Source of the DNA: a virus | Length of the DNA: 34,061 nucleotides | Strand: one strand, 5' to 3' | IMG/VR virus record: IMGVR_UViG_3300048447_000174 | Span: 1-34,061 of that record | Part shown: positions 4,679 to 32,454 of the stretch, in pieces | Numbering within the stretch: position 1 is the stretch's first letter | Layout: every line of letters starts with the position of its first letter | The notes under the pieces: generated by a model | The model's input: the letters and a program-made list of their open reading frames with translations, nothing else | Database searches by the model: none | Told to the model about the DNA's origin: nothing | Translations under genes and position numbers: made by a program

Positions 4679-4871
4679 AAACGTAAAAGAAGCAAACGAA
4701 GCTCTCTTTTATGCTACAATGAATTTACCTAATGCTGCTGCTCATTGTGGTATGACGCAGCGTGAAATGAAACACATCTTTCGTGAGTACCTTAAATATC
4801 ATGACAAAAACTTTGAAGTCACTGAAGACACCATTGAGATATCCTGGGGGGAAGAGTCGTGCCCTGAGTAA
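4659..4871 (+). CDS. small HTH-like protein (70 aa)
   Basis: ATG at 4659, overlapping the previous gene by 20 bases. The middle (NLPNAAAHCGMTQREMKHIF) reads as a helix-turn-helix: helix, small residue turn C-G-M, then a polar recognition helix. Similar small proteins are common in cyanophages without known function. Its 3' end overlaps the methylase start by 71 bases if the ATG at 4801 is used. A DNA-binding role is an inference from the motif only. Confidence 0.7.
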   Translation: MKKTTPENVKEANEALFYATMNLPNAAAHCGMTQREMKHIFREYLKYHDKNFEVTEDTIEISWGEESCPE

Positions 4872-5640
4872 GTTGTTTCAGTACATTCCTAACCTCACCG
4901 AATATACTCACTATCGAGAACCATTCTTGGGTGGTGGTTCTGTGGCATTAGAAATTTGTAAACGATATCCACACTTAGATATCTGGGTGAATGATTTGTA
5001 TGAACCACTGTATAACTTCTGGCGAGTGGTTCAAGATACTCCAGATGAACTTACACAAATTCTATTACAACTAAAGCAGAAGCATCCAGATCAAGAATCT
5101 GCTAGAGGTTTGTTCTTAGATTCTAAAGATCATCTTGGTAAAGATACTGGAGATCTAGACCGTGCTGTAGCATTCTACATTGTCAATAAGTGTAGTTTTT
5201 CTGGTCTTACTGAATCATCTAGTTTTTCAAAACAAGCAAGTGATTCTAATTTTTCTGTAGCAGGTATTGAACGCTTGCCTGGATATGCAGAACTAATTCA
5301 ATCTTGGAAAATTACTAACTTATCATATGAAGAATTATTTTGCGATAGCAAGTCAACCTTCGTCTATCTCGATCCCCCTTACGAAATCGGATCAAATTTA
5401 TATGGTAAGCGTGGAGACATGCACAAAGGATTTGACCATGACCAGTTTGCTGGTGATTGTGATCGCTTTATCTCTCATCAACTTGTTAGTTACAATTCGT
5501 CGCAACTGATCCGAGACCGTTTCAAGAAGGGGTGGACAGCTGCTGAATTTGCACACACTTACACCATGAGGAGCGTGGGGAGTTATAATACAGATCAAGC
5601 GTCTCGCAAGGAACTGGTCCTTACTAACTATGAAATGTGA
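4801..5640 (+). CDS. dam: D12-class DNA adenine methyltransferase (Dam-like)
   Basis: About 279 residues. The N-terminal SAM-site motif is TPLRYPGGKS, followed by REPFLGGGSVALE and the catalytic DPPY motif in FVYLDPPYE, in the order of the D12 (Dam/DpnM) family. These enzymes transfer a methyl group from SAM to N6 of adenine, often in GATC. Likely roles are protection from host nucleases or marking of phage DNA. The start is uncertain: an in-frame GTG (4783), ATG (4801) and TTG (4813, 4834) all precede the first motif, and none has a clear ribosome site. All overlap the HTH-like gene. It sits inside the gp44-gp62 interval, which suggests insertion into the replication cluster. Confidence 0.92.
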   Translation: MTKTLKSLKTPLRYPGGKSRALSKLFQYIPNLTEYTHYREPFLGGGSVALEICKRYPHLDIWVNDLYEPLYNFWRVVQDTPDELTQILLQLKQKHPDQESARGLFLDSKDHLGKDTGDLDRAVAFYIVNKCSFSGLTESSSFSKQASDSNFSVAGIERLPGYAELIQSWKITNLSYEELFCDSKSTFVYLDPPYEIGSNLYGKRGDMHKGFDHDQFAGDCDRFISHQLVSYNSSQLIRDRFKKGWTAAEFAHTYTMRSVGSYNTDQASRKELVLTNYEM

Positions 5641-5771: not shown

Positions 5772-5975
5772 ATGATTGTCCCTATGAGAGTATTAGGCAG
5801 TGGTCTTGTGATCATTGCTTACTTTATTATCCTGCATATGAATACAACATTTGGTGTCTTATTGCAGATGCTGGGTGATAGTATTTCAATTCCTTACTTC
5901 ATAAGGACAAAATCATGGGATGTAGTTATCATGATTACATTCCTACTAGTGATCTCTATATCGCATTTGTTATGA
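5772..5975 (+). CDS. small membrane protein (67 aa)
   Basis: Begins one base after the previous stop and ends with ATGA overlap to the next gene. Two hydrophobic segments, GSGLVIIAYFIILHM (about residues 9-23) and VVIMITFLLVISISHLL at the end, suggest two membrane helices joined by a short polar loop. No family is recognised. Confidence 0.7.
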   Translation: MIVPMRVLGSGLVIIAYFIILHMNTTFGVLLQMLGDSISIPYFIRTKSWDVVIMITFLLVISISHLL

Positions 5976-7368: not shown

Positions 7369-7439
7369 ATGACTTTATTAAATACCAGTGGATGCCTTCG
7401 GGGTCCATTACACCTCTCGCTTATACAAGGAGACAAACA

Positions 7440-7847
7440 ATGACACATACATGGGACTTATATTTACCGCATGCCGTAGGTTTGAATGATATGTTTCATC
7501 GATTAGATTCGATGACCAATCATAACAAAAACTACCCCCCGTACAACTTAATCAAACATGACGCCAGTAATTACGAAATTCAAATTGCTCTCGCAGGATT
7601 TAAAAGAGAGGAGATTGAAGTATCTACTGAATCAAACATTCTCAAGGTTACCAGTAACACTACAAGACAGGATACTGAAACAGAATACTTACACAAAGGA
7701 GTCTCGCGAAGATCATTTGCGAACACTTGGCAACTCGGTGACGATGTTAGAGTTGTGGACGTAACATTTGAGGATGGTATGCTGGTGGTTAGTTTGGAAA
7801 AAATTATTCCAGACCACATGAGACGAACCACTTACGAAGTCAAATAA
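7440..7847 (+). CDS. hsp20: small heat-shock protein Hsp20
   Basis: 135 residues. The ATG at 7440 is preceded by AAGGAG (7427-7432), which decides against the earlier ATG at 7392. The alpha-crystallin domain runs from NYEIQIALAGFKREEIEVS to DGMLVVSLEKIIP, with the usual A-L-A-G-F and G-x-L-x-V type motifs, here DGMLVVSLE. Small heat-shock proteins hold unfolded proteins in a refoldable state; in cyanophages the gene is part of the common set and may protect photosystem or virion proteins. It stands between terminators 7335-7368 and 7859-7876, so it can be regulated independently. Confidence 0.93.
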   Translation: MTHTWDLYLPHAVGLNDMFHRLDSMTNHNKNYPPYNLIKHDASNYEIQIALAGFKREEIEVSTESNILKVTSNTTRQDTETEYLHKGVSRRSFANTWQLGDDVRVVDVTFEDGMLVVSLEKIIPDHMRRTTYEVK

Positions 7848-26506: not shown

Positions 26507-26788
26507 ATGGAAAGCCCAAAGAAAGAGGAAGCCAAGAAGGACAACAAATTTGAGTGGGCGGATGAGGGTGTATCAACTCTCGTTCGAGTTATTATTCTTG
26601 GATGGTCAGCAGCAATTCTGACCCTTAATTATGTAACTGTCCCTGGTATTCCTCAAAAAAATATCGATCCAACTTTTATCGCCAGTGTGTTCACTGGAAC
26701 CTTAGCAACTTTTGGAGTGATGCCCTCCAAGAAGAAGGATGAAGATAAAACGCCTACATTACCAAAAAATAATGACAAAATTTCTTAG
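26507..26788 (+). CDS. two-helix membrane protein, holin-like size (93 aa)
   Basis: ATG at 26507. A charged N-terminus (KKEEAKKDNKFEWADEG) leads to helix 1 (RVIILGWSAAILTLNYVTV), a Pro/Asn loop and helix 2 (PTFIASVFTGTLATFGVM), then a charged Lys/Asp-rich tail. Size and two-helix layout fit class II holins, but no motif proves it. It overlaps plastocyanin by 17 bases, and a late-type box precedes it. Confidence 0.65.
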   Translation: MESPKKEEAKKDNKFEWADEGVSTLVRVIILGWSAAILTLNYVTVPGIPQKNIDPTFIASVFTGTLATFGVMPSKKKDEDKTPTLPKNNDKIS

Positions 26789-27104
26789 TTTGATTTGTTT
26801 GCTGGGTGTCATGCTTATGGCAGCACCAGTATTTGCAGTTGATGTTGTAATGGGTGCGGGGGGAAACCTAGCATTTGAACCTAATGAGATTACAATCTCG
26901 GCAGGTGACACACTACACTTCGTAAATGAGGCACTACCTCCTCACAATATTATTGTTGAAGCACGTCCCGATCTTTCGAGAGAGGCACTGCTCTTTGCAC
27001 CTGGTGAGTCACAAGATATTCTATTCGCTGACGCTGGCGACTATAATTTCTTCTGTGGTCCACATCAGGGTGCAGGTATGACAGGTACTATTCACGTCGA
27101 ATGA
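26772..27104 (+). CDS. petE: plastocyanin PetE
   Basis: 110 residues. The start is ATG 26772, because MTKFLSLICLLGVMLMAAPV is a signal peptide with cleavage after VFA (about residue 22). All four type-1 copper ligands are present: His58 (PPHN), Cys95 (FFCGPH), His98 and Met103 (GAGMTG). It carries electrons from cytochrome b6f to photosystem I in the thylakoid lumen, and phage copies are thought to maintain electron flow during infection. It overlaps the membrane protein by 17 bases. Confidence 0.97.
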   Translation: MTKFLSLICLLGVMLMAAPVFAVDVVMGAGGNLAFEPNEITISAGDTLHFVNEALPPHNIIVEARPDLSREALLFAPGESQDILFADAGDYNFFCGPHQGAGMTGTIHVE

Positions 27105-27111
27105 GGACACA

Positions 27112-27393
27112 ATGCAAAAAGTAATTAATGGAATTGCTTTGCTTTCAGGTCTAGTTTCTTTGAGTGTTTTGGGTGGAGGAGCATACCTTTATCTAAATGC
27201 TGACAGTCTTCTAGATCAAGGTAAAGAACAACTAACTAAACTAGTCGCAGGTGCTGCTACAGATGCAGTTTCTGGTGCCCTTCCAGGCATGCTAGACTCA
27301 TCTATGCCTGCTTTGCCTAAAACAACTGGTCCTGCAGTTCCTGTAGGTGTTCCAGCTGGTGGCATGGCACTACCTAAAGGTCTAGGTTTCTGA
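27112..27393 (+). CDS. small exported/anchored protein (93 aa)
   Basis: ATG at 27112, 7 bases after petE. An N-terminal hydrophobic helix (INGIALLSGLVSLSVLGGGAY) precedes an amphipathic stretch (QGKEQLTKLVAGAATDAV) and a Pro/Gly/Met-rich tail. It looks anchored to the membrane, with the tail on the outer side. It overlaps the next gene (TGATG). Function unknown; probably works with the following protein. Confidence 0.75.
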   Translation: MQKVINGIALLSGLVSLSVLGGGAYLYLNADSLLDQGKEQLTKLVAGAATDAVSGALPGMLDSSMPALPKTTGPAVPVGVPAGGMALPKGLGF

Positions 27394-28136
27394 TGAATTG
27401 GATCCCGAACATAGGGACCAATGAGATTAGGATATCGGATGTTTCTATTCCTAGTATTTCTGATTCTTTAATTCAAACGCCGATACAAGTATTCACCGTG
27501 CCTCCTGTAATCCAGGGGGTAGGTGTACCTGTTATTGATATGCCTGGTTGTGTGGAAGCACATGAACTTAGTGCAACGAATCGTAATCTCACGTCTGATG
27601 ACCCTAAAGGTACTATGACATTTTGTGATGCAGGTGTGCCATCATTTAATCCACTTGATTATAACAAAGAAAAATTAAAATTTCAATCTGAAGCACCTAT
27701 ACCAGTAGTTCCTGGACCAAAAGATGAACAACCATCACCTAAAATAGAAACAAAAACACCAAAAATTGACACTGTTAATTGCTTACCAACAGAGATATTT
27801 GATAAGGAAACAAACAAGTGTATTACTAGAGAAACTGCAGCAGTTGTGGAAGAAGTTGAAATTCCATGGACAGAACAATATCTACCTGCTCCTGGTACAG
27901 TAACTACGACAGCATCTATTGCTTTTGTTGCTACAACTTCAGCACTAATGGCAAAACCTTTAGCAGATCTTCTATTAAAGTTGGTGAAACCTACAGTAAA
28001 AAAAGTTGTGAAAAAGATTGCTAAAATTAGGGGGAAGGTGAGTAAGGTTGAATCTCTATCGGAGCGAAGAATTTCTCAGCGTCAGAGGAATCTTGCTGTT
28101 CGGACACTTCGCGAGGCGTTGAAACCGAAGGGATAG
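27393..28136 (+). CDS. Cys-containing membrane-associated protein (247 aa)
   Basis: The ATG at 27393 overlaps the previous stop. The N-terminal 150 residues are beta and Pro-rich, with paired Cys (PGCVEAH, FCDAG, NCLPTEIFDKETNKCIT), suggesting disulfides outside the cytoplasm. TVTTTASIAFVATTSALMAK (about residues 169-188) could be a membrane helix, and the last 50 residues are strongly basic. The gene runs 110 bases into the antisense gene. No signal peptide is visible; topology uncertain. Confidence 0.7.
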   Translation: MNWIPNIGTNEIRISDVSIPSISDSLIQTPIQVFTVPPVIQGVGVPVIDMPGCVEAHELSATNRNLTSDDPKGTMTFCDAGVPSFNPLDYNKEKLKFQSEAPIPVVPGPKDEQPSPKIETKTPKIDTVNCLPTEIFDKETNKCITRETAAVVEEVEIPWTEQYLPAPGTVTTTASIAFVATTSALMAKPLADLLLKLVKPTVKKVVKKIAKIRGKVSKVESLSERRISQRQRNLAVRTLREALKPKG

Positions 28137-28911
28137 CATGAACATGTGGATGCTCATGTCCAGGTATATTATTAACTACAACATCAGCACAAACTTTATA
28201 CATTGGACTTTTGGGATGAAAACGTATACCTTGTTTCATTAAAGTACCACAATTTTTAAGTCTAGCAATCTCAAAATCTAATCTTTTATTGGCAGTTGTC
28301 TGTTGCATCATTGCGATGTTAGCAGCAGCTGCCTCTTTGCATTGTGCTTGTAATTTTTTATCTAGAGGCGTAGACCATGTAGCAGAAAATCCTACGCTTA
28401 CGTTGTAATTATCTTTTTGTCCAGTTCTTGTAGGAACTTGATAGAGAATGGCACCAGGATTATCGGGAGCACCATCTTCGTCCATGTCTCTCATATCATA
28501 TACAGGTGAGTCATAAAAATCTTCATATGGTTTAGAAGCAGATGCGCTACCTGTCACATATGGTGTGAAATTCATGGTGGGACCTTGACATTGAATACCT
28601 CCACCGTAGGTATTAGTAATGTATGGTCCTTGTAAAACCTGAATAGCTTGATTGGTAACTGAGCCCGAACTATTAGCTACAGGAGCTGCAGTAGCAGACA
28701 CACCACCAACAGTTTCAGCATAAGAAGGATTAGCAAGCAGTAGTGTTACTGCGAGAAAATACTTGTTGTGTCGGTTACGCTTGTTATGTCTGTCTCTCTT
28801 TGGATAATTGTATGATTTTGTAATCCAGGTCCAGAGTAAGTTTCTGTGAACTGGAACGCTTGTCCTGGTGTTGTTTGTGTGAATTGAGGTTTGCTTGTTA
28901 CACCTGTCCAT
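28027..28911 (-). CDS. exported conserved cyanophage protein (about 240 aa mature), start unclear
   Basis: A clear signal peptide NKYFLAVTLLLANPSYA precedes ETVGGVSATAAPVANSSGSV and a long body with GGGIQCQGPTMNFTPY, VYDMRDMDEDGAPDNPG, NYNVSVGFSATWSTPLD and a Cys-containing helix ARLKNCGTLMKQGIRFHPKS. The same order of segments is known from cyanophage exported proteins without function. No ATG, GTG or TTG is found in frame near the signal peptide. The only in-frame start is ATG 28911, giving a 50-residue leader that overlaps the previous gene by 166 bases in another frame. Ends inside the plus-strand gene. Confidence 0.7.
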   Translation of the reverse strand: MDRCNKQTSIHTNNTRTSVPVHRNLLWTWITKSYNYPKRDRHNKRNRHNKYFLAVTLLLANPSYAETVGGVSATAAPVANSSGSVTNQAIQVLQGPYITNTYGGGIQCQGPTMNFTPYVTGSASASKPYEDFYDSPVYDMRDMDEDGAPDNPGAILYQVPTRTGQKDNYNVSVGFSATWSTPLDKKLQAQCKEAAAANIAMMQQTTANKRLDFEIARLKNCGTLMKQGIRFHPKSPMYKVCADVVVNNIPGHEHPHVHAIPSVSTPREVSEQQDSSDAEKFFAPIEIQPYSPSP

Positions 28912-29192
28912 GATGATGTCACTCCATCTATAGTTACATTATTAGTACCTGTCCCTGGAGACAGACTTCCATTTGATGTTATGCCTGAACCAGTAGCAGA
29001 ATACTGATATCCAGTGCTATAATCCATCGAGTTTATAGTTTCAGTTATCTTTTGAGTCGTTTCTGTGTGACTCGTCATGCTTCCTTGAGTGAAGTTGGGG
29101 ACCACGGGGACCGCCAGGGCAGGAACAAGTGTGACACTTGCACCCACCACAGATATCACAGACCAAAGTATAGTCTTTCCAAAAAGGGTCAT
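28746..29192 (-). CDS. exported Thr/Ser-rich protein (148 aa)
   Basis: AGGAG (plus-strand 29201-29205) lies before the ATG at 29192. MTLFGKTILWSVISVVGASV and ALAVPVVPN form a signal peptide. The mature part is rich in Thr, Ser, Gly and Gln with strand-like repeats (TTQKITETINS, GQAFQFTETYSGPG, TDITSVTDTTS), lacks Cys and resembles a secreted beta protein. Its end overlaps the exported protein above. Confidence 0.72.
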   Translation of the reverse strand: MTLFGKTILWSVISVVGASVTLVPALAVPVVPNFTQGSMTSHTETTQKITETINSMDYSTGYQYSATGSGITSNGSLSPGTGTNNVTIDGVTSSWTGVTSKPQFTQTTPGQAFQFTETYSGPGLQNHTIIQRETDITSVTDTTSIFSQ

Positions 29193-29203
29193 CTCTAATA
29201 CTC

Positions 29204-29698
29204 CTAGTCAATTACAGTAATCTCAGAAACAAATTGTCCTGTTGCACTAGTACCAGCACCACCAGCTGTCACGGTAAGTACACCAGCAGAAGTAACTGTA
29301 CCTGCTAATGTACCAGCAGATCCAGCAGTGTAAGAAAGAACTGATCCATAGTTAGGTACTTCACCTACGGTAGGAGCTCCTGTTGGGATAGCATCAGCTT
29401 GATTGTAAGATTGACTGAAACTAAATGCTGATCCAGCAGTATCTTGAGTAGCAGTAATAGTGCCAGGTGAATATACACCAGAGGTGATAGTACCAGCAGA
29501 TACAGCACCAGCAGTTGAACCATCGGTGGTATCAATATTAGAACCACTAATGCTAAATGAGGAACCAATTCTGGTTGCCTGAGTTCGGGCAGAATCAACT
29601 GTCAGTTGGACAGATGAAGCATGTTTTGATACAATTCCACCAGCGTTAGCAGCAGTAGCGGTCATCAGTAGCATAACGATAGGAAGAAGTTTCTTCAT
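29204..29698 (-). CDS. exported Gly/Ala/Thr-rich beta-type protein (164 aa)
   Basis: MKKLLPIVMLLMTATAANAG is a classic signal peptide (cleavage after ANA). The mature protein is low in charge, with short repeats (AGTITSGVYSPGTITAT, TAGSAGTLAGTVTSAG, TVTAGGAGTSATG) pointing to a beta-helix or extended beta structure. It is followed by the other two exported genes, and a late-type box AATAAATA lies 24 bases upstream of its ATG. Role unknown; cell-surface or virion-associated is possible. Confidence 0.75.
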   Translation of the reverse strand: MKKLLPIVMLLMTATAANAGGIVSKHASSVQLTVDSARTQATRIGSSFSISGSNIDTTDGSTAGAVSAGTITSGVYSPGTITATQDTAGSAFSFSQSYNQADAIPTGAPTVGEVPNYGSVLSYTAGSAGTLAGTVTSAGVLTVTAGGAGTSATGQFVSEITVID

Positions 29699-29721: not shown

Positions 29722-29729
29722 TATTTATT
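29722..29729 (-). promoter_or_regulatory. late-type box AATAAATA (minus strand)
   Basis: Complement of TATTTATT, 24 bases before the ATG of the 164-aa exported protein, matching TATAAATA at 7 of 8 positions. Confidence 0.45.
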
Positions 29730-30186
29730 CTACTAGTGTTCCATGTTGCCTACGAATGACTCGAAGTGCTTCAAGGTTCATATCTTTTGTGCCACCATCA
29801 TAGGCATGAGCATAACCTTCAGTGATCATTTGCTCATTCAATGATACTTCTGCATCTCCAATATATAACCAACCAAGAAGGCGACCATACTTACCCATAC
29901 CGCCAACCAATTCAGTTCTAACAGAGAGTTCATCGTCACCAGCAATAGCACCTTCTAGTTTTTCTTTCATCCAGTTAGTAGCATCTAGTCCCAGAGCTTT
30001 CTCCTCAAGGTTTCTAGTTCTTTTCTCTGGCGTATCAACTCCTGCAACTCTAACTCTTTCTTTCTTGTATAAGTCAAACCCAAGGTCGATAGTAACATCA
30101 ATAGTATCACCATCAAGGACACGATTGATCTCCGTCACTCGAAAGTTGTAGCAGCTCTTCCTGCTCGGTGGTGTCATTGCTCCCAT
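29725..30186 (-). CDS. SNase-like (thermonuclease-type) nuclease (153 aa)
   Basis: An OB-fold nuclease of the staphylococcal type: RVLDGDTIDV (metal Asp), RVRVAGVDTPEKR (Arg, Asp and Glu of the active site) and GKYGRLLGWL (second Arg) are all present, so it should be active. Such enzymes need calcium and cut DNA and RNA; a role in degrading host DNA is plausible. The N-terminus is uncertain: ATG at 30186 or 30177, or GTG at 30138. It overlaps the upstream membrane protein by up to 74 bases. Last gene of the minus-strand polycistron. Confidence 0.85.
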   Translation of the reverse strand: MGAMTPPSRKSCYNFRVTEINRVLDGDTIDVTIDLGFDLYKKERVRVAGVDTPEKRTRNLEEKALGLDATNWMKEKLEGAIAGDDELSVRTELVGGMGKYGRLLGWLYIGDAEVSLNEQMITEGYAHAYDGGTKDMNLEALRVIRRQHGTLVE

Positions 30187-30322
30187 CTTCTAACTCTGCA
30201 AATGCTTGTCTTAGTATGTATACGACTACAAACAGTGCCATTGCAACTGCAAGTATCACACAGATAATCACCGACCACACAGGATCGTTAGCGTTATCTA
30301 AAGGACGTAATATTAAATTCAT
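30113..30322 (-). CDS. single-helix membrane protein (69 aa)
   Basis: ATG at 30322 overlaps the 25-aa ORF stop. DPVWSVIICVILAVAMALFV and following VVYILRQ form one membrane helix, followed by an acidic tail (ELEDGSNDTTEQEE). Its 3' part overlaps the nuclease start. Confidence 0.6.
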   Translation of the reverse strand: MNLILRPLDNANDPVWSVIICVILAVAMALFVVVYILRQAFAELEDGSNDTTEQEELLQLSSDGDQSCP

Positions 30323-30396
30323 TTCTTAACTGACCAAGTAAGTTCCATTCCTATAGTAAGTAGGATAATAAATCCAAATACGAATACAGTACTCAC
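30319..30396 (-). CDS. membrane micropeptide (25 aa)
   Basis: GTG at 30396 overlaps the stop of the 58-aa gene; the stop overlaps the next ATG (ATGA). The peptide STVFVFGFIILLTIGMELTW is almost entirely a membrane helix. Coupled overlaps on both sides support expression, though the size makes this uncertain. Confidence 0.45.
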   Translation of the reverse strand: MSTVFVFGFIILLTIGMELTWSVKK

Positions 30397-30569
30397 AATC
30401 TATTACCACTATCTGCAGAAGGAATCAGTTGATATGCCATTTTGTCTCTCAACTTATTGACACGTTCTTCATTATATTGCTTAAAGTTTCCACGCTTCTC
30501 AACTTTTTTATAGTAATGTAATGCGTTGAGGATGATTGCATAATCATCCATATCTAATTCAAAATTCAT
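30393..30569 (-). CDS. small protein, unknown (58 aa)
   Basis: ATG 30569 overlaps the previous gene by 11 bases. It begins MNFELDMDDYAIILNALHYY and continues with basic helices (KKVEKRGNFKQYNEERVNKL, RDKMAYQLIP). No family is recognised. Confidence 0.6.
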   Translation of the reverse strand: MNFELDMDDYAIILNALHYYKKVEKRGNFKQYNEERVNKLRDKMAYQLIPSADSGNRL

Positions 30570-30747
30570 AAGTATGTTCCAATATTATTCGATATAAAGA
30601 GTCTCTCATAATCCAGAGATGTTCTTGTTCTTGTGCTGGTCTTGCTGGATAACCTTCCCACCTTTCCAATCTTTTAATCACACATTGGTACAACAATCTT
30701 ACATCTTCTATTGTTAAATCTACTGTGTAATCAGGATCTCTGTTCAT
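30559..30747 (-). CDS. small protein, unknown (62 aa)
   Basis: ATG at 30747 overlaps the previous stop (ATGA). The protein (MNRDPDYTVDLTIEDVRLLY, CVIKRLERWEGYPARPAQEQ, HLWIMRDSLYRIILEHTYEF) is helical and charged, with a W-rich turn. No family recognised. Confidence 0.65.
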   Translation of the reverse strand: MNRDPDYTVDLTIEDVRLLYQCVIKRLERWEGYPARPAQEQEHLWIMRDSLYRIILEHTYEF

Positions 30748-30914
30748 AGGTAGTCTGTGCGATCTCCATATTCTTCTTCATCTGCATCGACATCTGTGTA
30801 TGCATTGTATGCAGTACCTTTATCGTTAACAGTATTTACCCAAGCAAACAATTTCAATACTATAAAAAAGATTATCAAAGGCGTAGCACACCCGAATAAA
30901 ATTAAAGGATTCAT
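30744..30914 (-). CDS. small membrane protein with acidic tail (56 aa)
   Basis: Start at 30914, ATGA overlap with the gene before it. MNPLILFGCATPLIIFFIVL and following KLFAWV form one membrane helix; the tail is acidic (TDVDADEEEYGD). An alternative upstream start at 30950 lies inside the previous gene. Confidence 0.6.
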   Translation of the reverse strand: MNPLILFGCATPLIIFFIVLKLFAWVNTVNDKGTAYNAYTDVDADEEEYGDRTDYL

Positions 30915-31069
30915 TTGTGTTTTTTTACGAAAGGTTCCCAGTGCTCCCAACCATATTTATGAACTGCCCACATTCCAATGACAGGAATGAAGACTAAAAT
31001 AGTTGAGAGAAATCCTAATCCATATGGGTTGTTTAATACTGTCCCACAAAATCTAGCAAACTGTAACAT
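30911..31069 (-). CDS. small membrane protein (52 aa)
   Basis: ATG at 31069 overlaps the stop of the 27-aa peptide (TAATG). MLQFARFCGTVLNNPYGLGF is followed by LSTILVFIPVIGMWAVHKYG, a membrane helix ending in aromatic and basic residues. No family recognised. Confidence 0.6.
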   Translation of the reverse strand: MLQFARFCGTVLNNPYGLGFLSTILVFIPVIGMWAVHKYGWEHWEPFVKKHK

Positions 31070-31152
31070 TATTCTTGTAAAATTGATAAGATGAATAGAA
31101 ATAATCCGAACAAGCAATACACTGCTATGAAAGTTATGACCATGTGTTCCAT
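31069..31152 (-). CDS. membrane micropeptide (27 aa)
   Basis: ATG at 31152, stop at 31069. The sequence VITFIAVYCLFGLFLFILSI is one hydrophobic helix. It lies between and overlaps the neighbouring genes, which suggests translation, but the size makes this uncertain. Confidence 0.45.
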   Translation of the reverse strand: MEHMVITFIAVYCLFGLFLFILSILQE

Positions 31153-31346
31153 AGATCTCTAAAATAAAAATCAACTGATGTTAAAGTGCCATTTGGTGGT
31201 AGTGCTTTTGACTCTGCCCATTTGACACAGAATTTATGCACGTTAACATTAGACTGAATACTTTTGACACCATACATTCTAGAGAATGATGACATAGCAA
31301 AGTTATATGATTGAAGTACGTCTGGACTTGGTAGTGGGTACGTCAT
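31134..31346 (-). CDS. small protein, unknown (70 aa)
   Basis: ATG at 31346, overlapping the previous gene by 44 bases; a second ATG at 31295 would remove the overlap. The protein includes NVHKFCVKWAESKALPP and TSVDFYFRDLWNTWS, rich in aromatic residues. No family recognised. Confidence 0.55.
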   Translation of the reverse strand: MTYPLPSPDVLQSYNFAMSSFSRMYGVKSIQSNVNVHKFCVKWAESKALPPNGTLTSVDFYFRDLWNTWS

Positions 31347-31491
31347 CTAGTTTATTTTCGTAAATTTTAATCAATTTCATTACTTGTTTTTTAACGCAAC
31401 CTTCGGGAGCATTTTTTAAACAAAGCAAAATTAATTCATCATCATTAATTTCTGGTTTCTTTGTCCATCCTTGGAAATCTGTAGTACTCAT
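31303..31491 (-). CDS. small protein, unknown (62 aa)
   Basis: ATG at 31491 overlaps the Gnd-like stop (ATGA). MSTTDFQGWTKKPEINDDEL is followed by ILLCLKNAPEGCVKKQVMKL, with two Cys, and a basic end. No family recognised. Confidence 0.6.
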   Translation of the reverse strand: MSTTDFQGWTKKPEINDDELILLCLKNAPEGCVKKQVMKLIKIYENKLDDVPTTKSRRTSII

Positions 31492-31943
31492 TTAAAATTA
31501 CCTGGTGATAAAGATTGAAAAATTCTGGAGCAACTAGCAACAGCATAACTTGCACCATATACACCAGAAAATAGATATGATACTCCTAATTTGGTGCAGT
31601 ATTGTTGTCTTTCCATGCAGTCTTCGGGACTACTATCACTGTAATCAATAATGATATCGCCATCAACGCAGTGTTCTATCAGATTGTCTAGAGTTTTTTC
31701 TATTTTAGACGACGGAACAACTAACATAAAAACTCCAGGTGTTGTGCCAGTAGTTTTATTTGAATGAACTACTTGAGCAAGAACTTCAATGGAAGTGGTG
31801 CATCCACTGATGTATCCTGCATCATATTGTGCATTTGCTTTTGCATAGTCATCACGATATCCCCAGACTTCAATACCATTGTCTATTAGGCGTCGTGACA
31901 TGCCTTCGCCCATAGGTTCTAATCCGATAATACCTACTTTCAT
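31488..31943 (-). CDS. gnd: truncated 6-phosphogluconate dehydrogenase-like protein
   Basis: 151 residues. The N-terminus KVGIIGLEPMGEGMSRRLID matches the NAD(P)-binding start of Gnd (GIIGLGxMGxxM), but the second glycine position of the Rossmann motif reads Glu (GLEPMG). GVFMLVVPSSKIEKTLDNLI and VDGDIIIDYSDSSPEDC follow the Gnd order; the catalytic Lys-bearing helical domain (about 150-300 further residues) is absent and the frame stops at 31488. Gnd supplies NADPH in the oxidative pentose-phosphate pathway and occurs in some cyanophages. This copy is either a relic or a Rossmann-only protein with a new role. TalC at the window end belongs to the same pathway. Confidence 0.7.
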   Translation of the reverse strand: MKVGIIGLEPMGEGMSRRLIDNGIEVWGYRDDYAKANAQYDAGYISGCTTSIEVLAQVVHSNKTTGTTPGVFMLVVPSSKIEKTLDNLIEHCVDGDIIIDYSDSSPEDCMERQQYCTKLGVSYLFSGVYGASYAVASCSRIFQSLSPGNFK

Positions 31944-31944
31944 A

Positions 31945-32085
31945 TCACTTTTCGTTCATATTAGTTTTAAAGGTGTCTATAAGTTTCCCATATTCTCTGT
32001 ACATTTTGTCTCCTGCAACAAAAGATCTTTGTCTTTTTGATAATGCTTCAATAACTAACTGATGCTCAGATTGATTTAGATTCAT
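31945..32085 (-). CDS. small helical protein, unknown (46 aa)
   Basis: ATG at 32085 overlaps the stop of the 33-aa peptide (ATGA), and its TGA is followed one base later by the Gnd-like ATG. MNLNQSEHQLVIEALSKRQR and the remainder are helical and charged. No family recognised. Confidence 0.55.
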   Translation of the reverse strand: MNLNQSEHQLVIEALSKRQRSFVAGDKMYREYGKLIDTFKTNMNEK

Positions 32086-32183
32086 GACACTAAGGAGTTG
32101 GTTGTGTAAGCTGTACAGATAGACCATACAACTAATGTACTTATACTACCAAGTAATAGCAAAGCGGGGAGTACTGTTTTCAT
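32082..32183 (-). CDS. membrane micropeptide (33 aa)
   Basis: ATG at 32183, stop at 32082. MKTVLPALLLLGSISTLVVW is a membrane helix or signal-like segment, with a short polar tail. The promoter at 32210-32237 lies just upstream, so it is likely the first gene of its transcript. Confidence 0.5.
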   Translation of the reverse strand: MKTVLPALLLLGSISTLVVWSICTAYTTNSLVS

Positions 32184-32209: not shown

Positions 32210-32237
32210 ATTATAGCAAGTGATCTTTTGCTGTCAC
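32210..32237 (-). promoter_or_regulatory. sigma70 promoter with extended -10, minus strand
   Basis: On the minus strand, GTGACA (plus 32232-32237), a 16-base spacer and TATAAT (plus 32210-32215), preceded by TGC as an extended -10. It lies 26 bases before the first ATG of the micropeptide operon. Confidence 0.7.
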
Positions 32238-32239
32238 TT
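32218..32239. repeat. inverted repeat AAGTGA-N10-TCACTT
   Basis: Arms at 32218-32223 and 32234-32239 lie within the minus promoter, covering its -35 box and the spacer. This is the position of an operator. The same half-sites occur in the palindrome before talC. Confidence 0.5.
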
Positions 32240-32419
32240 TATGTCAGGTCTTCTAGACACAGTATCCTCATGGACATCTAGGTTCTGCTCTCTGTAAATT
32301 CTTAATTTATTCTGAAGATCTGTGTAAACATCCCACATATATTCAGATCCTGTGCTATCTTTATAAGACTCGCATGCTTTCTGTAGTCTAACAATGTCGT
32401 CGTCATTAAGGTGGAACAT
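32234..32419 (-). CDS. small helical protein, unknown (61 aa)
   Basis: ATG at 32419 is chosen over the upstream ATG at 32440. The product (MFHLNDDDIVRLQKACESYK, DSTGSEYMWDVYTDLQNKLR, IYREQNLDVHED) is helical and charged, with a single Cys. The gene ends over the -35 region of the promoter at 32210-32237. Confidence 0.6.
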   Translation of the reverse strand: MFHLNDDDIVRLQKACESYKDSTGSEYMWDVYTDLQNKLRIYREQNLDVHEDTVSRRPDIK

Positions 32420-32446
32420 AATTATGGTGCTCAATGCCATCCAATT

Positions 32447-32454
32447 TATTTATT
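32447..32454 (-). promoter_or_regulatory. late-type box AATAAATA (minus strand)
   Basis: Complement of TATTTATT; 28 bases upstream of the ATG at 32419. Seven of eight positions match TATAAATA. It sits in an imperfect palindrome (32441-32456). Confidence 0.4.

Follow-up and report, generated by a model that had tools for sequence, protein, structure and literature searches.

A coupled operon of small membrane proteins in a marine cyanophage genome fragment, interpreted as a relocated and reduced gnd/zwf/petE/PTOX cassette

A "possible mobile gene cassette" made up of gnd, zwf, petE, PTOX, a gene for a hypothetical protein and an endonuclease gene has been described in cyanomyoviruses, where it takes varied genome places and occurs in degraded forms (Sullivan et al., 2010, PMC3037559; of this and the other papers cited by PMC number we draw on excerpts). 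Endonuclease-driven mobility has been proposed for this cassette (PMC3037559), and a hypervariable region between g15 and g18 of cyanomyoviruses has been reported after Millard 2009 (PMC2984593). According to a 2023 review, cyanophage zwf and gnd have been little studied (PMC10452541). Here we analyze the IMG/VR virus record IMGVR_UViG_3300048447_000174, a stretch of 34,061 bases (hereafter the window) with the gene content of a marine T4-like cyanophage. In a DNA search of phage records, which may have left out some very near the window, the best-matching ones were Cyanophage S-RIM44 and phage Syn1 (genus Vellamovirus, Kyanoviridae). Our subject is a minus-strand operon of thirteen small genes running from 32183 down to 29725. 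Judged by gene content and order, which match those of the published cassette, this operon is a relocated, reduced variant of the cyanomyovirus gnd/zwf/petE/PTOX cassette.

The thirteen serial open reading frames (ORFs) are listed from the head of the operon downward. The number in each gene name is the length of the product in amino acids (aa; e62 and j62 are both of 62 aa), E is the expectation value, and dN/dS the ratio of nonsynonymous to synonymous substitution rates.

32082..32183, minus strand: b33, single-transmembrane micropeptide of the W-x-x-x-A-Y family (weak match to phrog_2253, E 0.0023)
31945..32085, minus strand: c46, small protein without membrane helix, counted from the inner ATG at 32085 (phrog_2064, E 3.3e-15)
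31488..31943, minus strand: d151, "short Gnd", N-terminal Rossmann domain of 6-phosphogluconate dehydrogenase (6PGDH) (phrog_3646, E 1.8e-60; Pfam NAD_binding_2, E 1.3e-16)
31303..31491, minus strand: e62, small protein without membrane helix (phrog_1201, E 1.2e-18; dN/dS 0.14)
31134..31346, minus strand: f70, predicted helical, leaderless form of a so-called zwf remnant (phrog_593, E 6.3e-21)
31069..31152, minus strand: g27, single-transmembrane micropeptide with the motif GLFLFxLS (without PHROG match)
30911..31069, minus strand: h52, single-transmembrane protein, TAATG-coupled to g27 and counted from the inner ATG at 31069 (phrog_1184, E 9.5e-30)
30744..30914, minus strand: i56, single-transmembrane protein by hydropathy, with acidic tail (phrog_2832, E 1.2e-15)
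30559..30747, minus strand: j62, without membrane helix (phrog_628, E 3.8e-29)
30393..30569, minus strand: k58, without membrane helix (phrog_835, E 1.4e-36)
30319..30396, minus strand: l25, single-transmembrane micropeptide, MSxLFVFGF...TWPxK (without PHROG or Pfam match)
30113..30322, minus strand: m69, single-transmembrane protein with acidic tail, its gene overlapping the SNase gene by 74 nucleotides (nt) (phrog_814, E 4.1e-39)
29725..30186, minus strand: n153, staphylococcal-nuclease-like protein (SNase) (Pfam SNase, E 1.6e-11; phrog_452, E 1.2e-75)

The twelve junctions of this chain comprise eleven overlaps and one 1-nt gap. The overlaps measure 4 nt in six cases (ATGA or GTGA) and 1, 11, 19, 44 and 74 nt once each, g27 and h52 having a single base in common (TAATG). 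As judged by eye, a Shine-Dalgarno sequence is not clear before most starts, as start/stop coupling would lead one to expect. When ORFs of at least 25 aa with any ATG or GTG start were chained, allowing overlaps of up to 45 nt or gaps of up to 3 nt, the longest chain held 13 members on the real strand and 2 on the opposite strand, against a mean of 2.2 and a maximum of 5 in 300 dinucleotide shuffles; with overlaps restricted to at most 11 nt, the real chain held 8 members and the shuffles at most 4. Hydropathy marks b33, g27, h52, i56, l25 and m69 as one-helix membrane peptides. A preliminary description of this DNA had proposed a dense antisense run of about thirteen genes whose starts overlap or abut the preceding stops, with the same six one-helix products (33, 27, 52, 56, 25 and 69 aa) and a terminal SNase-like nuclease, and each of these points was borne out. 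Ten of the 13 products have PHROG matches at E <=1e-14, to families without assigned function apart from the Gnd-like and nuclease ones; soluble proteins are encoded in the operon as well, the half-6PGDH among them. In NCBIfam, matches were obtained for d151 alone, every one below the curated cut-offs.

Near the operon lies one further member of the published cassette:

26739..27104, plus strand: petE-like plastocyanin gene (Pfam Copper-bind, E 1.2e-19), 2.6 kb from the SNase gene

With the cassette of PMC3037559 the window has in common the SNase of phrog_452/T4-GC228 (the latter being the label of the n153 homologue in Syn1), a gnd-derived gene and petE nearby; f70 is a relative of T4-GC1021, and the same small genes are found in related phages. 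The window differs in genome place and in strand, in that gnd is reduced to its N-terminal half and in that petE lies on the opposite strand. No zwf was found: phage Zwf has no match at E 10 in this record, itself a fragment. The published description includes degraded cassettes, and the excerpts of that paper used here do not describe micropeptides. The hypervariable region between g15 and g18 (PMC2984593, excerpts) draws on the same gene pool, but the window copy is not in the structural module: it is not between g15 and g18, and its neighbours are genes for tRNA-Arg, tRNA-Asn and tRNA-Val, a phage tail lysozyme gene and genes of phrog_564, phrog_650 and phrog_848. Dozens of loci repeat the order petE-gnd-(f70)-h52-(i56/j62)-k58-l25-m69-n153, some members being absent or exchanged; many of these loci lie between gp16 and gp17, and this order is close to that in Syn1 and S-RIM44. 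In S-RIM14, petE, gnd, an f70-type gene, l25 and h52 stand together; in a sister isolate, their distance from m69 is about 68 kb. Among 21 records searched whole, a set that includes near-duplicates (e.g., two of ACG-2014b), petE was found in 21, l25 in 18 and the Gnd N-domain in 15, and the distance from l25 to petE is about 5 kb or less in 14 of the 18.

Comparison of relatives shows conservation and purifying selection for the micro-ORFs, even for those of 25 and 27 aa. Pooled Nei-Gojobori dN/dS from pairs with less than 25% divergence, which gives descriptive values since the pairs are not independent, was between 0.08 and 0.35 in 13 of 14 families and 0 for c46 (a single pair); the highest value is that of m69, whose gene overlaps the SNase gene. 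In larger sets of distinct sequences, dN/dS was 0.17 for l25 (88 sequences), 0.20 for g27 (42), 0.26 for b33 (12), 0.10 for h52 (102), 0.16 for short Gnd (51) and 0.26 for the N-domain of longer Gnd (33). Matches to l25 occur in 174 phage records (E <=1), all named as cyanophage, Synechococcus or Prochlorococcus phage; identity is 60% or higher in 155 of these records. Scans of viral contigs, each relying on one exact motif, returned 287 contigs for l25 and 67 for g27, and the consensus sequences are MSxLFVFGFIxLLxxGMExTWPxK and YCLFGLFLFILSxxxE, respectively. A gnd gene lies at most 2.5 kb upstream of g27 in 67 of 91 testable loci. In the GenBank regions inspected, the annotation is missing for l25 (9/9) and for g27 (4/4). 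Window g27 gave no match in phages by tblastn at E 1, and a relative from locus L009 (L numbers denote our loci) matched 81 phage records at E 5, although the weaker of these matches lack significance. Window b33 matched 19 records at E 5, none covering 80% of b33 and one being a Streptococcus phage; a b33 relative used as query matched 70 records at E 1, 50 of them below 60% identity.

The limits of the transcription unit were considered with the help of the following features.

32210..32237, minus strand: sigma70-type extended -10 promoter, GTGACA-16-TATAAT with TG, upstream of b33 (11/12; 0.003 expected per 120 bp)
32234..32440, minus strand: a68 (phrog_5190, E 3.5e-21, match from residue 9; likely true start near M8, at 32419)
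32447..32453, minus strand: late-promoter-like ATAAATA upstream of a68
29722..29728, minus strand: ATAAATA as late promoter motif, ahead of what seems a separate unit (o164, p148), from comparison of upstream regions

The promoter before b33 had been called a good extended -10 promoter in the preliminary description, and by its match to the consensus it is one. At a cut-off of 9/12, promoter-like sites in the region are not above shuffles (17 vs 16.9). That description had let the unit begin at b33 and end with the SNase gene; the end seems to stand, and the beginning probably lies further upstream, because a68 in many relatives precedes petE with an ATGA overlap and the operon would therefore include it (up to 32440). 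In 30 distinct regions upstream of a68, a sigma70-like site of at least 10/12 is found in 18, and NATAAATA, the late motif reported for S-PM2 (PMC2984593), at this place in 7, the window type included; over the whole window NATAAATA is not above chance (12 vs 9.1 expected). From 29698 downward, past the SNase, the genes seem by their upstream motif to form a late unit of their own. Before o164 homologues matched from the N-terminus, all 15 distinct regions hold [A/C]TAAATA (in shuffles, 0.5 regions on average and 3 at most) and 11 hold exact ATAAATA; this stricter set omits L048, where the match begins inside the protein and the motif is absent, and in the wider set exact NATAAATA was found in 10 of 16 regions. 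Early timing of the operon itself is suggested by the sigma70-type promoter and by analogy with Syn9, whose zwf and gnd are co-expressed early in infection according to a review table (PMC6359870).

The two genes directly after the SNase gene and under the conserved late motif (28746-29698, minus strand; phrog_564 and phrog_650/DUF6322) encode products with hydrophobic N-termini. Their homologues in Syn1 are labelled T4-GC237 and GC236, and GC237 belongs to a second published gene cluster.

The short Gnd encoded by d151 has the same N-terminal NAD-binding Rossmann fold as 6PGDH. Its AlphaFold2 model (mean predicted local distance difference test, pLDDT, 88.3) finds its best PDB partners in 6PGDH N-domains (Z 21.3, root-mean-square deviation 1.8 over 144 residues). 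Unlike 6PGDH, d151 is of about half length and lacks the catalytic domain: the ORF stops at 151 aa, and the Gnd C-terminal catalytic domain has no match in the record at E 10. Aligned with full-length phage Gnd, the short forms have lost the GNS triplet (SDS instead in d151) and carry a 15-column deletion around SGG; we take both motifs of the N-domain to be catalytic. In a tree of 46 N-domains, 26 short forms make up one side of a branch with ultrafast bootstrap (UFBoot)/SH-like approximate likelihood ratio test (SH-aLRT) values of 100/100, and six forms of 183-193 aa group at 97/100. This tree omits L058 and L061 (cut on the right by the contig end), the partial rows L048, L068 and L087 and rows identical over the first 180 aa, and the window row and L057 are long branches in it. 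From alignment and tree, the short Gnd appears to be a family of one origin, under purifying selection and without the catalytic domain or motifs. Loci with gnd numbered 136, of which 88 carry a short form, 40 a full one and 6 one of N-domain length, 2 being cut; the loci are redundant and were chosen via SNase, l25, g27 or short gnd, and so do not give an unbiased frequency. The window's own short gnd found three loci as a viral-contig query (L091-L093), all identical to the window over the operon proteins, the next relatives being below 60% identity. In GenBank phages, the Gnd N-domain was matched in 233 cyanophage records and the C-domain in 173 (187 minus 14 not named cyanophages). If the 173 are taken as lying within the 233, about one in four "gnd" carriers may be without the enzyme. 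Surveys of "gnd" would miscount the short forms labelled as such, which are annotated as 6-phosphogluconate dehydrogenase in, for example, ACG-2014a and b.

Short gnd, a leader-bearing f70, g27 and h52 also occur as a compact set (L204, 2243-3245; L183-L213), no petE or SNase match being seen nearby. The L204 set adjoins nucleotide-sugar-like genes, as judged by eye, and the cassette core may move alone.

At the end of the operon, m69 and the SNase form a coupled pair. Matches to m69 occur in 366 phage records. Of 169 loci, 146 have the m69 start 130-139 nt ahead of that of the SNase, and 8 gave no m69 match. By eye, n153 keeps the catalytic residues of staphylococcal nuclease, namely the Arg before VDTPE, the Glu of DTPE and the Arg of KYGR. 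In one of the 169 loci (L060), the SNase at 5852 is preceded in frame by a hydrophobic extension of 33 aa, possibly making it a membrane-anchored nuclease.

Our preferred reading, of which we are about half persuaded as a whole, joins these elements: a relocated, reduced cassette read as one early sigma70 mRNA with coupled translation, whose membrane peptides act on electron transport, with a half-Gnd regulator and an m69-SNase pair. The mRNA would be made early from a promoter of host type and translated by start/stop coupling. In the window copy, gnd stands alone as its Rossmann half, the small genes are kept and zwf was not found. The six single-helix peptides would most likely enter the host thylakoid or plasma membrane, as hydropathy suggests; photosynthetic or respiratory membranes are the proposed site since the peptide genes are mostly found in company with those for plastocyanin, PTOX and the pentose-phosphate pathway. 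There the peptides would most likely serve as small accessory or regulatory subunits of electron-transport complexes, by which the phage would steer electrons and NADPH to nucleotide synthesis. A role as a partner or regulator that has a nucleotide fold but no catalytic activity is probable for the half-Gnd, and m69 would probably tether the co-encoded SNase, or hold it in check, until host nucleic acid is broken down. These roles are proposed because of gene association and because of cyanobacterial photosynthetic subunits of 29-50 aa; indeed, cyanobacterial complexes contain small subunits down to the 29 aa of PetN (PMC5126843). The micropeptides are like PetN, PsbT and PsaM (PMC5126843) in size, in having one helix and in their cyanobacterial membrane context, but showed no sequence similarity to such subunits in the searches made.

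Several observations weigh against this reading. In 4 of the 18 l25-bearing records l25 is far from petE (about 12, 57, 108 and 108 kb), the two 108-kb cases being the related S-RIM44 and Syn1, the closest matches of the window; moreover, the records were partly picked by similarity to the region, which biases the association of l25 with petE upward. Profile searches of the PDB with l25 and g27 returned nothing at E 10. No host homologue of l25 was seen in a motif scan of one genome each of 84,980 species, which hit two contigs of metagenome-assembled genomes (MAGs) only; the scan used one exact N-terminal motif, by which divergent host relatives are missed, and was made for l25, not for g27 or b33. 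The P-loop of the window Gnd, GLEPMG, departs from GxGxxG, which makes nucleotide binding doubtful. Finally, the late-type motif before a68 makes late transcription possible.

The two MAG contigs (L094 and L095) were considered as hosts of l25 and rejected, since the cyanophage cassette genes aboard suggest phage contigs that were probably mis-binned. The contig assigned to Euryarchaeota TMED129 carries short gnd, i56, j62, l25 and m69, and that assigned to Formosa NAT248 carries m69, SNase, l25 and p148.

The alternative that survives best, a real if minor possibility in our view, is that of a general early host-takeover operon unrelated to photosynthesis, in which the micropeptides would disturb host membranes, block superinfection or counter defences. 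The sigma70-type promoter, the many small proteins without assigned function, the nuclease and the distance of l25 from petE in the four records just mentioned would all suit such an operon, but petE, gnd, f70 and PTOX are frequent companions in several genome places, which speaks against it. None of ten scanned products matched in PADLOC at E 0.01, a scan that leaves b33, g27, l25 and the SNase outside and says little on counter-defence. The preliminary description had spoken of an early host-takeover operon of membrane micropeptides. Of this, the coupled polycistron and the sigma70-like promoter have stood, the membrane micropeptides proved to be conserved in relatives, a point which that description had put up for checking, and early timing stands by analogy only. 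Host takeover as such finds no support: gene content and order are those of a published carbon-metabolism and electron-transport cassette, and soluble proteins are encoded as well.

The micropeptides change places among loci. The slot counts given here are of loci, not of independent viruses, and loci from different scans may share a contig. Where f70 and h52 are close, 28 of the 36 distinct ORFs just before h52 encode hydrophobic peptides of 27-41 aa and have a stop that overlaps or nears the h52 start. Two of these peptides are of the l25 type, and the others belong to the g27 or the b33 (W-x-x-x-A-Y) type; at the remaining 8 positions none was seen. In the window, the b33-type peptide sits at the operon head rather than before h52, and in Sf-CH3 a b33-like peptide was read by eye from the DNA between a68 and c46, c46 itself lying there, as in the window, between a68 and gnd. 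The l25 start precedes m69 by exactly 74 nt in 93 of 135 loci (by 92 nt in three more), and l25 directly follows the SNase in 18; elsewhere it stands after PTOX (S-SM2), before gnd (S-CAM22), after zwf (Sf-CH3) or after an f70-type gene (S-RIM14). Likewise, the last base of g27 is also the first of h52 in 80 of 111 loci, and in 13 a g27-like peptide is found elsewhere, before l25. From these arrangements, at least three families of membrane micropeptides of about 25-36 aa occupy exchangeable coupled slots. Such exchange might also be selfish, the SNase/m69 pair and the micro-genes being mobile passengers that recombine at start/stop overlaps and have no common function. That l25, b33 and g27 types swap slots and yet keep ATGA or TAATG coupling would fit this idea, as would the different genome places of the cassette and the endonuclease-driven mobility suggested in PMC3037559; we regard it as improbable in view of the amino-acid constraint on peptides of 25-27 aa and the proximity of l25 to petE in 14 of 18 records.

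Genes of 276-306 nt (T4-GC1021) have been called zwf remnants, with similarity kept along the protein (PMC3037559). The f70 relatives of about 100 aa and phage Zwf have in common a leader of 37-49 aa (MSYFxDHYPLYVPP...) at about 45-70% identity. In 2 of 42 f70 relatives (L048, L052), the alignment extends past the leader, to 68-74 residues with the leader included. Several leaderless relatives, that of the window among them, weakly match Zwf residues 59-82 (best 23.5 bits; E 0.001-0.04, the database holding three sequences), but this match of about 24-25 residues was equalled in score by 4 of 30 shuffled sets, and a profile-profile comparison of leaderless f70 with leaderless Zwf gave a probability of 0.2% on a stretch of about 25 residues. 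The AlphaFold2 model of f70 is helical (pLDDT 85.6). Pfam gave no match at E 0.1 for 26 f70 relatives, the best PDB match of the fold search was at E 5.3, and a profile match to REV1 (E 0.39-0.75) was judged to be chance. We incline to the view that two different proteins, the f70 relatives and Zwf, carry a common leader, rather than to a zwf remnant, and consider the remnant label of the f70 relatives, on these alignments, unproven and in doubt. That short Gnd, f70 and the micro-ORFs are all gnd/zwf remnants on their way out, like the degraded zwf of PMC3037559, has the published remnant genes, the lost catalytic parts of short Gnd and the 24-aa Zwf match in its favour, but is very improbable, given purifying selection in every family, the near-constant length of short Gnd in 88 of the 136 redundant gnd loci, its single old branch, the shuffle and profile results for that match and the predicted helical f70.

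Elsewhere in the window, Pfam identifies a D12-class adenine methyltransferase gene (4783-5640, plus strand) and an Hsp20 gene (7392-7847, plus strand). Two convergent genes (27393-28136, plus strand; 28027-28911, minus strand) overlap by 110 nt, and the annotation of Syn1 and S-RIM44 has a convergent overlap of 101 nt at the corresponding place.

A literature search by title or abstract found no paper on truncated or short cyanophage 6PGDH or on small membrane proteins of cyanophages, and within the literature searched the micropeptide families with their slot exchange, the short-Gnd family and the doubt over f70 as a zwf remnant appear to be new. A wider idea, which we offer as speculative and unlikely as it stands, is that of a toolkit shared by cyanomyoviruses, in which at least three families of single-helix peptides of about 25-36 aa can replace one another in coupled slots of the electron-transport/pentose-phosphate cassette and, as small subunits supplied by the phage, retune host photosynthetic or respiratory complexes, with a catalytically dead half-Gnd sensing or regulating NADP(H) flow. 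Viral reprogramming of metabolism in the ocean is commonly illustrated by the gnd/zwf/petE/PTOX cassette, and its small genes are listed as unknown or are unannotated. If the peptides do act on membrane complexes, they would be the missing membrane arm of a pathway that has so far been described mainly via soluble enzymes.

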